From Candidatus Nitrosocaldus sp. (GTDB lineage: Archaea > Thermoproteota > Nitrososphaeria > Nitrososphaerales > Nitrosocaldaceae): 64,000 nt of DNA. The stretch is from NCBI GenBank assembly GCA_025054855.1, contig JANWZS010000002.1, positions 62,001 through 126,000 of the forward strand, read 5' to 3'. Under the pieces are notes generated by a model. That model did not search any database. It worked only from the letters and a program-made list of their open reading frames with translations, and was not told the DNA's origin. Shown in pieces: positions 4,315 to 11,063 of this stretch. Position 1 is the stretch's first letter. Each line of letters opens with the position of its first letter. Both the position numbers and the translations under genes were made by a program.

Positions 4315-4332
4315 TTTATCGTAAAGGATAAA
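4315..4332. promoter_or_regulatory. inverted repeat in the Dps-like gene promoter
   Basis: TTTATC and GATAAA form a perfect 6-bp inverted repeat separated by 6 nt. It lies immediately upstream of the TATA-like TTTAAA (4308-4313) of the Dps-like gene, where BRE contacts occur. Position fits an operator for a metal- or redox-responsive dimeric repressor; this is inference from layout only. Confidence 0.35.
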
Positions 4333-4416
4333 CCCGATTCGGTTAACTTTCATTGTACCTAGTGCTAAAATTATTTTACATAGTTAGTTTAATATGATGA
4401 GTGCTACTCAACCACA

Positions 4417-6435
4417 ATGGGTTTGACCAGTGATTATGCTGAGCGAGATGATGGAAGGGATAGCAACAGCATAGAACCAGTCTCCAAGCGTGTGAAGATG
4501 ATATTCTCAGTCATGGCCAATCCGAACAGGATAGATATACTGAGGATACTCAACTCCAAGGGCTCCCTTACATACTCTGACCTCAAGGCACAGGTAGGGT
4601 TCAGATCGAAGAAGGAGAGCGGCAAGTTCGCATACCACCTCAGGAAGCTCCTCAAGCACTCTCTAGTAGCACTGAACAGGGCTGAGAGGAAGTACGTGAT
4701 AACCAACAAGGGCAAGTTGATCCTCAACCTGACCAGGCAGATAGAGGAGAGGTCTGTGATGGAGAGCGGGAACATATACGTTAGGACTAGGGAGAGGATG
4801 GAGGAGTTCAATACGTACAAGATAACCCAGTCACTGGTCAGGGAGACGAACATGCCACCAGAACTGGCGCAGAAGATAAGCGAGGAGGTAGAGAACAGGG
4901 TTCATAGGATGCAGGGTGTGTACCTCACCACATCGCTCATAAGGGATATAATAGGTTCGGTACTCCTGGAGCATGGGCATGAGGATTACAGGAGCAGGTT
5001 CTCCACCATAGGCATACCGTTATCAGAGATGGTTGGCATGCTCTCTGATAAGAGCCATGATATGGACTCTGTCATCCATAACATAGCAGATGCACTACTC
5101 GAGGAGTACAACCTCTTCCACGTGATACCCAAGGACGTTGCGGATCTGCACCTCTCAGGGGATATAAGTATAGCAAACATCAGCAGTTGGTGCATGGTCC
5201 CAGATACCATATTCGCCAACATCAAGGAGATGCTTGATAGCAGCACCAGCGGTAGGTCACTTTACGGTATCGATGGGATAGATGACCCGATCATGAGGGT
5301 TGGTATGCTGTGCACAATCCTTGCAAGGTGTGCAGCAGAGGAGGTGGCGGTGTATGGGGTATCCGATCTGCTTGGACGTGATGGTGTAGATAGGGCAAGT
5401 ATGACGGGCGATAGGTTCGCTAGGATGCTCATGCTCATCTCATCCATGAGAGGCTCCAGGATATCCTTCCTGCTCAAGGAGTTCATCGAGTATGGTAGCA
5501 AGGGCATGGTTGGTGAGCTGCTGGATGGCTATGCTTACTACGTGAAGCATACGAGCTCACCCAGAGTCTCCATAGTGCTCCCTGCACATGACGGTGATGG
5601 GCATGCCATGTCAACAGAGTATGTGGATAAGATAGTGGATATATCATCCATGGGCGGGTCGGTAGCTGTGAGCGATCTACTCGTAGGGTCAAAGGGTCTG
5701 ATATGCAGGAGTAGGTATACTAACCTTGTACTGCACTCGCTCTCAATGAACCTACCTAGACTTGCGTACGAGTCGAATAACGATGAGGTGTACTTCAGGG
5801 CAAGGCTCGCACTACTCCTCAAACCCATAATGACTGCACTCTCATCACGAGAGGCTATGGTGATGGAGAATATGAGGCATGTACTCCCTGATGGCAGTAT
5901 GCTTGATACAGGCATGGTCATAAACATGGTGGACCTGCCTTCATCCATATCCAATGTGCTCAAGCATGATGATATCGTGGATGTGGCAAGGAAGGTTCAG
6001 AGGACATTGGTGGATAAGGGTAGGGAGATGGGGTATGGTATAAGCATAGCCATGATAGATGATGGTAGCGCATCAAGACTCTCCAGGCTTGATGGCGAGA
6101 GGTATGGGAGGTCACCCACGGGCAGCGAGTACACACAGGGGATAGAGGTGCATGCTGAGGATATGCACAGTACAGATGCAAGCAGCAGGATAGCGATGCT
6201 GAGCAACGTGCTAGATGGGGGAGTGACCATAACCTTGGATGTCAGCAATGTCAGCACTGCAGTTGCAAGGGATGCCATAAGCGATGCCATGGAGAGGTTC
6301 GGTTTCTTCAGGGTGATCAACAGGGGTGTTAGGGTGTGCAGCAGGTGTGGCTCAAGGTTCAACACCAGCATCACCATGTATGGTAGCATGAACAGATGCC
6401 CCAACTGCAAGGCACCAATTATAAGTATCAAATAA
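4417..6435 (+). CDS. winged-helix/ATP-cone protein on a degenerate class III RNR (NrdD) scaffold; probable RNR regulator
   Basis: A 672-residue protein with three parts. Residues about 20-105 form an ArsR-like winged helix (MANPNRIDILRIL, then YVITNKGKLILNL). Residues about 123-200 look like an ATP-cone, the dATP/ATP sensor of ribonucleotide reductases. The rest resembles the barrel of anaerobic NrdD, including the LHLSGDI motif, and ends in a four-Cys zinc ribbon (CSRCG, CPNCK). NrdD normally continues after this ribbon into the glycyl-radical loop; here the protein stops, so catalysis by the class III mechanism is impossible as written. It lies 67 nt upstream of nrdJ on the same strand. A transcription factor sensing dNTPs and controlling nrdJ is the best inference. 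Confidence 0.72.
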   Translation: MGLTSDYAERDDGRDSNSIEPVSKRVKMIFSVMANPNRIDILRILNSKGSLTYSDLKAQVGFRSKKESGKFAYHLRKLLKHSLVALNRAERKYVITNKGKLILNLTRQIEERSVMESGNIYVRTRERMEEFNTYKITQSLVRETNMPPELAQKISEEVENRVHRMQGVYLTTSLIRDIIGSVLLEHGHEDYRSRFSTIGIPLSEMVGMLSDKSHDMDSVIHNIADALLEEYNLFHVIPKDVADLHLSGDISIANISSWCMVPDTIFANIKEMLDSSTSGRSLYGIDGIDDPIMRVGMLCTILARCAAEEVAVYGVSDLLGRDGVDRASMTGDRFARMLMLISSMRGSRISFLLKEFIEYGSKGMVGELLDGYAYYVKHTSSPRVSIVLPAHDGDGHAMSTEYVDKIVDISSMGGSVAVSDLLVGSKGLICRSRYTNLVLHSLSMNLPRLAYESNNDEVYFRARLALLLKPIMTALSSREAMVMENMRHVLPDGSMLDTGMVINMVDLPSSISNVLKHDDIVDVARKVQRTLVDKGREMGYGISIAMIDDGSASRLSRLDGERYGRSPTGSEYTQGIEVHAEDMHSTDASSRIAMLSNVLDGGVTITLDVSNVSTAVARDAISDAMERFGFFRVINRGVRVCSRCGSRFNTSITMYGSMNRCPNCKAPIISIK

Positions 6436-6502: not shown

Positions 6503-9166
6503 ATGATGGATGGTACCGATACGAAGCCACAAGACTTGGCAAGTACCATAGGCAAGATAAGGAAGAGGGATGGTAAGGTAGTAGAGTTCCAGACCACTAA
6601 GATAACCAATGCCATATACAAGGCCCTTCTTGCTACGAAGAGGCCAGACTATGCTCTAGCGGAGAGGCTGGCTGAGAAGGTTGTGCAGAGGCTGATCAAG
6701 CATGGCTTCAACGCAGGCAACATACCTGGTGTAGAGGATGTCCAGGATATTGTGGAGACCGTGCTCATAGATGAGGGGTTGGCAGATACGGCCAAGGCGT
6801 ACATACTCTACAGGCATGAGAGGAGGAGGATCAGGGAGGAGAAGATGAAGATACTTGAGAGGAGTACCCTGGATGAGGTTGACAAGGCGTTGAGCACGAA
6901 CTCCCTGCGTGTGCTTGCGAGCAGGTACCTGCTCAGGGATGAGAGTGGGAAGATAGTGGAGAGCCCGAAGCAGATGTTCGAGAGGGTTGCCATACTGATA
7001 ACCATACCAGATATGCTCAGGGACTCGAGGGTCTTCATGCTCAATGGCACGTTCAAGAGGGACGATCTGGCCAAGGTAGAACACTACCTCGAGAACCTTG
7101 ATGGGTTCGATGGCAGGTACAGCATAGGGGCATACAGGATGAACAAGTGGCATGTAGAGTCCATGCTCAGACTGTACAGGGAACTCGCATCGCAGGGGAG
7201 GATGAGGGTGGGTATAGATGAGATGTTGAGCATGCTCGAGAACAGGGAGTTCGATGCGTACGAGAAGAGGGTTGAGGAGTACTACAGGCTCATGGTTGAG
7301 ATGTACTTCCTTCCAAACTCACCCACGCTCATGAATGCAGGTGCAAGGCTTGGGCAGCTGAGTGCGTGCTTCGTGCTCCCCATACACGATGATCTAGCAA
7401 GCATAATGAAGACCGCTACGGATGCTGCACTCATCTTCAAGTCTGGTGGGGGGGTAGGCATAAACTACTCGAATCTAAGGCCAGAGGGCGATATAGTTGC
7501 ATCGACCAGCGGTGTGGCCTCTGGCCCAGTATCGTTCATGCGCATAGTGGATACAACCACTGAGGTGGTTAAGCAGGGAGGCAAGAGGAGGGGTGCAAAC
7601 ATGGGCATACTCGAGGTATGGCACCCAGATATAGAGAAGTTCATAACAGCCAAGACGAAGCCTGGAGTCCTAGAGAACTTCAATGTGAGCGTTGGTGTAT
7701 GGTCTGACTTTGTGGATGCTGTGAAGGGTAATGAGAAGTATGCGCTCAGGAACCCCAGGAACGGGAAGGTGGTTGGATATGTTGATGCCAGGCAGTTGAT
7801 CGAACTCATCGCTATAAGTGCATGGCAGTCTGCTGAGCCTGGGATGCTCTTCCTGGATAACATGAACAGGTACAACGTGATGAAGGATGTGCAGGGGCTC
7901 ATAAGGGCTACCAACCCGTGTGGAGAGCAGAGCCTATACCCGTATGAGTCATGCAATCTGGGCTCCATAAACCTTGCAGAGCTCGTCAAGCGCAGGGCAG
8001 ATGGGAGCTATGAGTTCGACTGGCAGAGGTACGAGCAGGTGATAAGGCTTGCGACCAGGTTCCTAGACAATGTGATAGATGTGAGCAAGTACCCCATAGA
8101 TGAGATAGATAGGGCAACCAAGGCCAGCAGGAGGATAGGGCTAGGCATAATGGGGCTGGCAGACCTACTCTACATGCTCAGGATACCATACAACAGCAAG
8201 GAAGGTTATGAGTTGATGAACAGGCTCGCTGAGGCACTAACTTACTACAGCATGGATGAGAGCGTTGAGATAGCCAAGAGCAGGGGTGCATTCCCACTCT
8301 ACAACGAGAGCGGGTATGTGCAGGGTAAGTTGCCAGTGGGAGGGTACTATGAGCTTGCAAGGGAGGAGCATACACAGGACTGGGATGCTCTCATAGAGAA
8401 GATAAAGCGTTACGGCATAAGGAACAGCCAGACCACGACGGTTGCCCCAACAGGTACACTGAGCATGATAGCAGACTGCTCTGGAGGTATAGAGCCTACG
8501 TTCGCACTCGTGTATGAGAAGCACGTCACCGTAGGCAAGTTCTACTACACCAACAGGATACTGGAGGAGGTGCTCAAGGGCATGGGCATGTACAGTGATG
8601 AACTGCTGCAGAGGATAGCCGAGAACTACGGCTCTGTCAAGGGTCTAGATGAGGTGCCAGAGGAGGTACAGAGGGTCTTCGTGACTGCTATGGATATACA
8701 CTGGGCAGACCATATAATGGCTCAGGCCGTATGGCAGAGGTGGATAAGCAACGCCATAGCGAAGACCATTAACATGCCCAGTGATGTCACCGCAGAGGAT
8801 GTGAGGTGCTCATACCTGCTTGCTCACGAGCTCGGACTGAAGGGGATAACCGTCTTCAGGGATGGCTCTAGGCAGCAGCAGGTACTCCACATAACTGGGG
8901 AGAGCAGGGTGAAGAGGTTCGATGCTGTACCAAGTAACTATGCCATAGAGTACATAAGGAGGTACGTCAAGGATGGTTCACTGCTGAAGGAGATCGAGGC
9001 TGCCATACTCAAGGGTAACAGGGTGAAGGGCAGTAGAGGGTATGCTCTGAGCACCATGGGTAGCGAGGGTGAGATACTCTGCCCACTCTGCAAGTCGAGG
9101 CTGGTATTTGCTGAGGGATGCAATACATGCATGAACTGTGGTTGGAGCAGTTGCATAGTCAGTTGA
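6503..9166 (+). CDS. nrdJ: class II adenosylcobalamin-dependent ribonucleotide reductase
   Basis: An 887-residue vitamin B12-dependent ribonucleotide reductase that makes deoxynucleotides without needing oxygen or a small subunit. An ATP-cone occupies about residues 15-110. The barrel has the conserved Cys in LSACFVLP (near 289), NPCGEQ (near 470) with the catalytic Cys and Glu, ESCNLGS (near 480) and PTGTLSMIADCSGG (near 648). The C-terminus is a Cys-rich tail (CPLCK, CNTCMNCGW) like the reducing or zinc tail of NrdJ. Length is normal and there is no intein. It follows the NrdD-like regulator and has its own TATA-like box with a palindromic site. Confidence 0.95.
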   Translation: MMDGTDTKPQDLASTIGKIRKRDGKVVEFQTTKITNAIYKALLATKRPDYALAERLAEKVVQRLIKHGFNAGNIPGVEDVQDIVETVLIDEGLADTAKAYILYRHERRRIREEKMKILERSTLDEVDKALSTNSLRVLASRYLLRDESGKIVESPKQMFERVAILITIPDMLRDSRVFMLNGTFKRDDLAKVEHYLENLDGFDGRYSIGAYRMNKWHVESMLRLYRELASQGRMRVGIDEMLSMLENREFDAYEKRVEEYYRLMVEMYFLPNSPTLMNAGARLGQLSACFVLPIHDDLASIMKTATDAALIFKSGGGVGINYSNLRPEGDIVASTSGVASGPVSFMRIVDTTTEVVKQGGKRRGANMGILEVWHPDIEKFITAKTKPGVLENFNVSVGVWSDFVDAVKGNEKYALRNPRNGKVVGYVDARQLIELIAISAWQSAEPGMLFLDNMNRYNVMKDVQGLIRATNPCGEQSLYPYESCNLGSINLAELVKRRADGSYEFDWQRYEQVIRLATRFLDNVIDVSKYPIDEIDRATKASRRIGLGIMGLADLLYMLRIPYNSKEGYELMNRLAEALTYYSMDESVEIAKSRGAFPLYNESGYVQGKLPVGGYYELAREEHTQDWDALIEKIKRYGIRNSQTTTVAPTGTLSMIADCSGGIEPTFALVYEKHVTVGKFYYTNRILEEVLKGMGMYSDELLQRIAENYGSVKGLDEVPEEVQRVFVTAMDIHWADHIMAQAVWQRWISNAIAKTINMPSDVTAEDVRCSYLLAHELGLKGITVFRDGSRQQQVLHITGESRVKRFDAVPSNYAIEYIRRYVKDGSLLKEIEAAILKGNRVKGSRGYALSTMGSEGEILCPLCKSRLVFAEGCNTCMNCGWSSCIVS

Positions 9167-9330
9167 TGTGTAGGCATAGCAGTTATAGGCATGGGCATGG
9201 GGTAAAGTCATAGCAGAACCAACGGATGCTCGCCATCCCTTTATTTACATAATGCGTGGAGATAGTATGAGTTGTATGTATCGAACTGCACTCTAAAAGA
9301 GGTGAAAGGGTAGTGTATCCTATTAGGGTT

Positions 9331-9603
9331 ATGGATAAGAGGAACAGGTTCGAGATAGTTGCAGATATACTCATGACGCTGGAGAGTAGAGGGGCACTCT
9401 ACAAGACGCAGATAGCCAACAAGTGCAACCTGGATACGAGGATGCTCAACAGGTACATGGAGATGCTGCTCGATGCAGGGCTCATAACACAGGCTCCAGA
9501 TACGCCTAGAGCATTCATCATAACGGATGAGGGGAGGAGGTATCTGATGCTCTACAACAGGATAAGGCAGATGCTGTCGGATTACGAGTTCAACCTGCAC
9601 TGA
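9331..9603 (+). CDS. archaeal winged-helix DNA-binding protein
   Basis: A 90-residue stand-alone winged helix. The N-terminal helices and recognition region (TQIANKCNLDTRMLNRYMEML) are followed by a wing that ends in TDEGRRYL, the usual archaeal HTH_45-like pattern. The frame is open from a GTG at 9313; the ATG at 9331 is preferred because family members typically begin with a short MxKRxRxE segment. Such small proteins are abundant in Nitrososphaerota and probably regulate neighbouring genes. The target is unknown. Confidence 0.75.
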   Translation: MDKRNRFEIVADILMTLESRGALYKTQIANKCNLDTRMLNRYMEMLLDAGLITQAPDTPRAFIITDEGRRYLMLYNRIRQMLSDYEFNLH

Positions 9604-9622
9604 TATATCCACAAGATGTATA

Positions 9623-10555
9623 CTACACTGGCGGGATGGCGTTGATCATCAGTGCAAGTAGTGCTGCCCTTACATCCTTGCCGTAGGATGCCTGCTTGAA
9701 GTACCTTGCCCTCGCATCAGAGTCGACATGGTATGCAACCTCATCGACCCTGGGTAGGGGGTGGAGCACTATGGCATCGCTCCTCGCCCTTGCAAGTACC
9801 CTATCATCTATCACGTAACTGTGCTTCACCTTCTCATACTCCTGCGCATCTGGGAACCTCTCCCTCTGTATCCTTGTGACGTAGATCACATCGAGTGTAT
9901 CCACAACCTCATCTATCGAGTCATGCTCCCTGATGCTCAGAGAGTCCATGGCATAGAGCGACTCCCTCCTTATCCTCAGCAGGGGTGGTGCTACAAGGTG
10001 CACATCAACCCTGTACATCGCAAGGGCATAGAGCAGTGAGTATACGGTCCTGCTGTACTTCAGATCCCCCACTATACCTATCCTCAACCCATCTATCCTC
10101 CCCTTCTCCTTGAGTATGGTGTAGAGGTCGAGCATAGCCTGCGTTGGGTGCTCCTCAGCCCCGCTCCCAGCGTTTATCACAGGGTTACTGGCAACCTCAG
10201 CAGCCAACCTCGCAGAGCCATCCATCCTGTGCCTCAGCACTATAACATCACTATACGAGTCCACAACCCTTATGGTATCCACCAGGCTCTCCCCCTTCTC
10301 CATGGATGACTCCTTGCCACTCGCTATGCCTATGCTGCTCCCGCCTATCGATGCCATAGCAGCCTCAAAGCTCAGCCTGGTCCTGGTGCTCGGCTCGAAG
10401 AACAGGTAGCAGAGTACCCTGCCCCTGCATAGGCTCAGCCTCTCCTGCATGTTCATACCCCTTATCCTATCTGTAGCGTTGAAGAGCAGATCCATCTCCT
10501 CCCTGGTCATATCCCTGGTCGATATCACATCCCTCCTGTAGAATGGGTTTGCCAT
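9623..10555 (-). CDS. pyrB: aspartate carbamoyltransferase catalytic subunit
   Basis: A 310-residue aspartate transcarbamoylase catalytic chain, which joins carbamoyl phosphate and aspartate in the second step of pyrimidine synthesis. The carbamoyl-phosphate loop FEPSTRTR (near residue 55), the HPTQ motif (GAEEHPTQAMLDL) and the C-terminal HPLPR are all present. The frame opens at a TTG at 10561 but the ATG at 10555 has a TATA-like ATATAG 26 nt upstream. Its regulatory partner PyrI is on the other strand, 40 bp away, instead of in the usual pyrBI operon. Confidence 0.96.
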   Translation of the reverse strand: MANPFYRRDVISTRDMTREEMDLLFNATDRIRGMNMQERLSLCRGRVLCYLFFEPSTRTRLSFEAAMASIGGSSIGIASGKESSMEKGESLVDTIRVVDSYSDVIVLRHRMDGSARLAAEVASNPVINAGSGAEEHPTQAMLDLYTILKEKGRIDGLRIGIVGDLKYSRTVYSLLYALAMYRVDVHLVAPPLLRIRRESLYAMDSLSIREHDSIDEVVDTLDVIYVTRIQRERFPDAQEYEKVKHSYVIDDRVLARARSDAIVLHPLPRVDEVAYHVDSDARARYFKQASYGKDVRAALLALMINAIPPV

Positions 10556-10595
10556 GAGCAAGAAGATTATAAACCACTATATATGCAATTAGTGC
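10556..10595. promoter_or_regulatory. interleaved divergent pyrB/pyrI promoters
   Basis: The 40-bp gap holds two TATA-like boxes. ATTATAAA (10566-10573) lies 26 nt before the pyrI ATG, and TATATAT (10579-10585, read on the minus strand) lies 26 nt before the pyrB ATG. Each box therefore sits nearer the other gene, so the two preinitiation complexes would cover the same DNA. Both transcripts would be leaderless. Confidence 0.5.
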
Positions 10596-11063
10596 ATGTC
10601 GGAGGAGCAACTCCTGGTCAGGAGGATAAGGGAGGGTACGGTTATAGATCATATAGATGCTGGAAAGGCACTACTTGTACTCAGGGCTCTGGGCATAACG
10701 GGTAGGGAGGGCAGTGTTGTGACCGTAGCCATGAACGTGCCGAGCGTGAAGCTCGGTAAGAAGGACATAATCAAGATAGAGGGTAGACTGCTCGCTGCAG
10801 ATGAGACCAACAAGATAGCGCTCATAGCACCCAAGGCAACCATAAACATAGTCAGTGATTACAGGGTTAGGGAGAAGAGGAGGGTAGAGTTGCCAGATGA
10901 GTTCATAGGTGTATTCAACTGCCCCAACCCGTCATGCATAAGCAACTCAGAGAGGAGTGTAGCAAGCAGGATAGAGGTTCTGGACAAGGAGAAACAAAAA
11001 TTGAGGTGTTGGTACTGCAGAAGGATACTGGAGGCTAACGAGTTGATATCAAGCATCCATTGA
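10596..11063 (+). CDS. pyrI: aspartate carbamoyltransferase regulatory subunit
   Basis: A 155-residue regulatory chain of aspartate transcarbamoylase. The N-terminal allosteric domain begins RRIREGTVIDHIDAGKAL, the family signature. The C-terminal zinc domain has two Cys pairs, CPNPSC and CWYC, that bind the structural zinc and contact the PyrB trimer. It should bind nucleotide effectors and tune the PyrB holoenzyme. Its last 29 nt overlap the 3' end of a convergent membrane-protein gene. Confidence 0.95.
   Translation: MSEEQLLVRRIREGTVIDHIDAGKALLVLRALGITGREGSVVTVAMNVPSVKLGKKDIIKIEGRLLAADETNKIALIAPKATINIVSDYRVREKRRVELPDEFIGVFNCPNPSCISNSERSVASRIEVLDKEKQKLRCWYCRRILEANELISSIH

Follow-up and report, generated by a model that had tools for sequence, protein, structure and literature searches.

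NrdR, the bacterial dNTP-sensing repressor, is a protein of 140-220 amino acids that binds DNA through an N-terminal zinc ribbon placed before its ATP-cone, and for the S. coelicolor protein the roles of individual residues are described, the nucleotide contacts including K50 and R51 (PMC9110341). An oligomer change is described for class III ribonucleotide reductase (NrdD) carrying an ATP-cone (PMC11226230), and the ATP-cone of some ribonucleotide reductases (RNRs) can sit on a partner subunit (PMC5794259). Because NrdR is rare in archaea (PMC9110341, PMC12176259), gene-level control of RNR is largely open in these organisms. In a sample of 101 genomes of the phylum Thermoproteota, NrdR (TIGR00244) scored above the family cut-off in four; it was found in none of the 14 sampled genomes that belong to the order studied here.

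The window, a 64,000-nucleotide stretch from a Candidatus Nitrosocaldus sp. that among named organisms is closest to Candidatus Nitrosocaldus schleperae and tengchongensis, encodes a protein, below called the regulator, that is probably the archaeal counterpart of NrdR, since in Nitrososphaeria its gene always lies just upstream of that of a working reductase. Comparison of sequences and of a predicted structure demonstrates a winged helix, an ATP-cone and a NrdD body that has lost its catalytic residues (Table 1). No description of such an HTH-ATP-cone-NrdD protein was found in the open-licence literature; an earlier mention, for example in a table of archaeal orthologous groups, may exist.

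Table 1. Coordinates of the regulator, its parts and the neighbouring features in the window
Feature	Position	Strand	Basis or remark
wHTH - ATP-cone - inactive NrdD - Zn ribbon protein, 672 aa	4417..6435	+	proposed RNR regulator
Winged helix-turn-helix domain, residues 24-110 (DUF7347/HTH_20)	4486..4746	+	Pfam
ATP-cone domain, residues 119-200	4771..5016	+	PF03477, 1.2e-9
Catalytically dead class III RNR (NrdD) body, residues 201-640	5017..6336	+	profile, PDB and fold matches
Cys4 zinc ribbon (C641, C644, C661, C664)	6337..6408	+	alignment; glycyl-radical loop absent after the ribbon
Conserved promoter element TTTACATAGTTAGTTTAAT	4375..4393	+	overlaps a TATA-like box 42 nt 5' of the start codon; candidate autoregulatory operator
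nrdJ, class II (B12-dependent) RNR with its own ATP-cone	6503..9166	+	TIGR02504, 5e-234
Small winged-helix protein (HTH_45), 96 aa, between nrdJ and pyrB	9313..9603	+	
pyrB, aspartate carbamoyltransferase	9623..10561	-	convergent conserved neighbour
pyrI, aspartate carbamoyltransferase regulatory chain	10596..11063	+	

Domain architecture and fold

The earlier note on this DNA had read into the protein an N-terminal winged helix, an ATP-cone-like segment, a NrdD-like region with the motif LHLSGDI and a C-terminal zinc ribbon, with the chain ending where NrdD enters its glycyl-radical loop; every one of these features reappeared in the profile, alignment and structure comparisons. The N-terminal winged helix is ArsR-like and matches DUF7347/HTH_20 at residues 29-103 (1e-11), with scores above the curated cut-offs of two Pfam families (PF24038, 44.9 bits against 27.6; PF12840, 29.7 against 27.0). 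Its recognition region, SKKESGKFAYHLRKL, is invariant in Nitrososphaeria. The Pfam matches to the ATP-cone (residues 125-194) and to NRDD (residues 409-491, 6.5e-11) likewise exceed their curated cut-offs, and the NCBIfam model of NrdD (TIGR02487) aligns in three stretches with 44 bits against an equivalog cut-off of 326. The single regulator sequence used as a query gave no match to NrdD in the PDB. A profile of 20 homologues reached the NrdDs of phage T4 (1h78, 6e-12), T. maritima (4coi, 3e-11) and S. thermophilus with E-values from 6e-12 to 1e-9, and these alignments extend as far as the cysteines of the zinc site. All four zinc cysteines are invariant in an alignment of 38 sequences, and the chain ends eight residues past the last of them, at the point where active NrdDs continue into R-V/I-x-G-Y. 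LHLSGDI occupies residues 244-250; across 40 homologues its positions H245, L246 and G248 hardly vary.

In an AlphaFold2 monomer model, most of the C-terminal half of the NrdD body is predicted with a pLDDT of about 80-93, whereas the winged helix and parts of the body's N-terminal half have lower values. The 35 best structural matches of the model in the PDB are all class III reductases (E-values of 4e-16 and up, TM-scores by target of 0.47-0.60), with class II and class I reductases ranking far behind. NrdR itself appears as a weak match to the ATP-cone (E 0.03). The regulator's cone keeps the counterparts of E56 and K62 of S. coelicolor NrdR, while K50 is replaced by arginine and R51 by threonine.

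Loss of catalysis and descent

Class III RNR is an oxygen-sensitive enzyme. Its catalytic positions were compared in an alignment that set 100 homologues of the regulator, 20 of them from Nitrososphaeria and 80 from other classes, beside 22 true NrdDs from this phylum, with T4 residue numbers (C79, C290) taken from a HMMER alignment to T4 NrdD. Both cysteine columns hold Cys in all 22 true NrdDs and in none of the 100 regulator homologues, in line with the proposal of the earlier note that this NrdD is inactive. The radical glycine is present in 22/22 true NrdDs and absent from all Nitrososphaeria regulators, whose chain stops after the zinc ribbon. In regulators of the other classes the site of the radical loop is mostly mutated or cut, for example SRISAKYLP in place of SRVTGYYQ (locus L158); a Gly aligns with the radical position in 13 of the 80, mostly members of family f20, none of which has any catalytic Cys. 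The f20 loop reads YTRVYGKYLP (L155, L265, L268-L271, L273, L274, L277-L279), and both catalytic cysteines are gone from these proteins. A cysteine in the sequence TGCRF, two columns off the C290 column (L146, L158), might have been a catalytic residue that had moved, but its rarity and the missing counterpart of C79 led us to reject this reading. Judged by the aligned residues, the regulator does not belong to the active NrdDs. It shares with them the ATP-cone, the reductase body, the C-terminal zinc site and a clear homology and fold, but it has lost both catalytic cysteines and the glycyl-radical loop that define them and has gained a winged helix.

The regulator gene was present in 37 of 41 genomes of near relatives (five genomes representing the genus of the window), normally as one full-length copy, and a match was obtained in 222 of 300 genomes of the phylum, the weakest of which may be to the helix alone. 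No other NRDD protein was found in the genome of the window, and in the other classes of the phylum regulator and true NrdD occur together in many genomes. The gene is ancient and extends beyond the ammonia-oxidising archaea to many relatives of theirs; most of the sampled Thermoproteota have it, and probably nearly all ammonia-oxidising archaea do. Two frames share the regulator at L111 (1825-2871 and onward), which is one of the rare broken copies or a sequencing error. A Nitrosopumilus-like regulator with nrdJ also stands on a contig labelled as a Phycisphaerales bacterium (L090), most likely through a binning error.

In 13 pairwise comparisons dN/dS did not exceed 0.04 in the winged helix (0-0.04), reached 0.23 in the cone (0-0.23) and lay between 0.04 and 0.32 in the NrdD body. 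By this measure all three parts are under purifying selection, the body included, and the protein is therefore a maintained pseudoenzyme. In a tree of NrdD bodies the active enzymes lie on one side of a branch with a support of 100/99 and the Nitrososphaeria proteins form a single clade (100/100), which is consistent with a single origin of the regulator in Thermoproteota: if the root lies among the active enzymes, the regulators arose once. The inner order of the tree is unsure because of some long branches (R_L160, R_L152).

Gene neighbourhood and promoter element

In three partly overlapping samples of Nitrososphaeria, every locus whose sequence continues past the regulator has nrdJ there in the same orientation (28/28, 77/77 and 30/30), at a distance of mostly 25-300 nt and at most 571 nt. 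Among 80 loci of other classes, nine have a true nrdD and one has nrdJ downstream in the regulator's orientation, and in five of the nine (L146, L147, L158, L238, L240) a glutaredoxin gene lies between regulator and nrdD; in many genomes outside Nitrososphaeria no RNR gene is adjacent to the regulator. The link to RNR genes drawn by the earlier note thus holds, whereas its pairing with nrdJ is conserved in Nitrososphaeria and gives way in the other classes to neighbours that are often a class III nrdD or pyrB/pyrI. So far as computation reaches, neither outcome that the note named as refuting its reading was encountered: the NrdD fold and the ATP-cone are present, and homologues are linked to RNR genes.

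In the window the regulator is followed by nrdJ, the small winged-helix gene, pyrB in reverse orientation and pyrI; the 96-residue HTH_45 protein may be a second regulator of this cluster. In 36 of the 80 other-class loci the regulator faces a pyrB or pyrI gene tail-to-tail at a distance of up to about 300 nt, and at loci with an RNR gene a pyrB match often stands 3' of that gene (L145, L146, L158, L263, L284). Convergent pyrB/pyrI genes are a conserved feature across classes of the phylum (L142, L143, L144, L154, L156, L157, L227-L280; 9623-11063 in the window), often with a spacing of only 10-30 bp between pyrB and the regulator. Weak PyrB matches at L150 and L153 proved to be ornithine carbamoyltransferase. 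The simplest history would start from an ancestral cluster of regulator, RNR and pyrBI genes, with later loss or exchange of the RNR gene. The few genomes of the phylum that have a true NrdR have the regulator as well (G041, contig C8, locus L224, and the genomes of L225 and L226); in G041, NrdR stands beside an active nrdD and the regulator beside pyrB.

A conserved block precedes the regulator gene. Relatives of Nitrosocaldus and Nitrososphaera carry TTTACAAAGTAGTTTTAAT, with few exceptions at a distance of 41-44 nt from the start, and Nitrosopumilales carry GTCAyAArTCTTAwTTAC, mostly 36-38 nt before the start. The commonest forms of both share ACAAA-N5-TTTA, so that one element of 17-19 bp is found in two orders. 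Pairwise identity in the two forms of the block was 0.88 (23 loci, with 0.28-0.44 upstream of it) and 0.82, against about 0.3-0.4 further upstream; the values for the block are partly due to anchoring on the first 9-11 bases, and the unanchored remainder is conserved too. Scans of whole genomes typically gave a single perfect or near-perfect match, the one in front of the regulator, and the genome of the window has only one other site within three mismatches, itself a three-mismatch match. Weaker matches were no commoner than those of a reversed control pattern, and we therefore claim no wider regulon. Deeper lineages of Nitrososphaeria (L013-L030) showed no recognisable element, and no copy was found upstream of nrdJ. 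This gene is often 150-270 nt away from the regulator and may have its own promoter. Because the block overlaps a TATA-like box, it may be a promoter, an operator or both. Further upstream, at about 4325-4350 of the window, ACGATTTAAACTTTATCGT lies between a divergent ferritin-like gene and the regulator; in two relatives (L002, L003) its ends read ATGAT...ATCAT and the outer arms stay complementary, whereas in L004 and L005 they do not. The ferritin-like gene probably has its TATA region here.

Proposed function and relation to known regulators

We consider it likely that a duplicated class III RNR, joined to a winged helix, has become a dedicated regulator of dNTP synthesis that acts in an NrdR-like loop. 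The comparisons of sequence and structure show what sets it apart from the enzyme: an ArsR-like winged helix stands at the N-terminus, neither catalytic cysteine is left and, in Nitrososphaeria, the glycyl-radical loop has gone as well. The NrdD body would hold together a dimer or higher oligomer whose winged helices bind DNA, and the ATP-cone would read ATP versus dATP. A switch of oligomer or conformation, comparable to the oligomer changes of NrdR and of NrdD with an ATP-cone (PMC11226230), would then make the winged helices bind or release the regulator's own promoter and thereby govern the regulator-nrdJ unit as feedback on its own operon, with repression at high dATP as the likeliest sign of the response. 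An NrdR-like feedback loop would thus be built from different parts.

Anatomy and linkage support this reading well, and we infer DNA binding, nucleotide binding and control of nrdJ. It is backed by the order and fold of the domains, the dead cysteine columns, purifying selection and the separation of the active NrdDs in the tree, and also by the linkage to RNR, the scarcity of NrdR and an element that sits at the regulator's own promoter at a nearly fixed distance from the start. Against it stand the two altered NrdR nucleotide contacts, the many genomes outside Nitrososphaeria without an adjacent RNR gene, and the element, which could be a core promoter only and was not seen before nrdJ. A still or partly active reductase with an extra domain would explain the NrdD fold and the radical glycine retained by some members of one family, but with neither catalytic cysteine in any homologue and no radical loop in Nitrososphaeria this idea deserves almost no credence. 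Equally negligible is a decaying pseudogene or mis-joined reading frame, for which nothing but the missing tail speaks, while the full-length frame is open in dozens of genera and selection acts on all domains.

Two further explanations concern what the protein acts on. As a pseudoenzyme subunit it would bind NrdJ (or NrdD) and tune its activity allosterically, the winged helix serving protein contacts or localisation. RNRs oligomerise via such folds, some can carry the ATP-cone on a partner subunit (PMC5794259), and the linkage to RNR genes would fit as well; yet no other part is as strongly conserved as the winged helix, with its dN/dS near 0, and a link at the level of DNA fits better with a partner that is a class II enzyme in some genomes, a class III enzyme in others and at times not a neighbour at all. 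We regard this subunit role as unlikely. Quite unlikely, too, is a general transcription factor of nucleotide metabolism (pyrBI and others) for which the RNR link is ancestral synteny only. The tail-to-tail pyrB/pyrI genes outside Nitrososphaeria, the pyrB matches 3' of RNR at several more loci and the same gene order in the window would agree with it, but a convergent pyrB has no promoter in common with the regulator, the element typically occurs once per genome, at the regulator, and the RNR linkage is complete in Nitrososphaeria. An extension of the dNTP-sensing regulator, which we put forward tentatively and rather doubt, is a phylum-wide, NrdR-independent class that uses the entire ancestral reductase as sensor, the ATP-cone and the old specificity (s-) site together reading several dNTPs; dNTP balance, not dATP alone, would then set transcription.

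The regulator is a clear example of an enzyme that has apparently come to regulate the metabolic pathway it once served, with intermediates of the conversion preserved as remains of the radical loop in other classes. A comparable design is seen in the ROK-family repressors (NagC/Mlc), where a winged helix is likewise fused to an enzyme fold turned sensor; they differ in having a sugar kinase fold and unrelated ligands and genes. ArsR/SmtB-type winged-helix proteins and DUF7347 share the N-terminal domain of the regulator without such an effector domain. With NrdR the regulator has in common the ATP-cone, a DNA-binding domain, a zinc ribbon, linkage to RNR genes and likely autoregulation. NrdR, however, has its zinc ribbon at the N-terminus and lacks an RNR body, whereas the regulator, with 672 residues, has a winged helix as putative DNA binder and a whole NrdD fold. 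It would work like NrdR and yet stands outside the NrdR family, from which it differs in DNA-binding domain, size and body.
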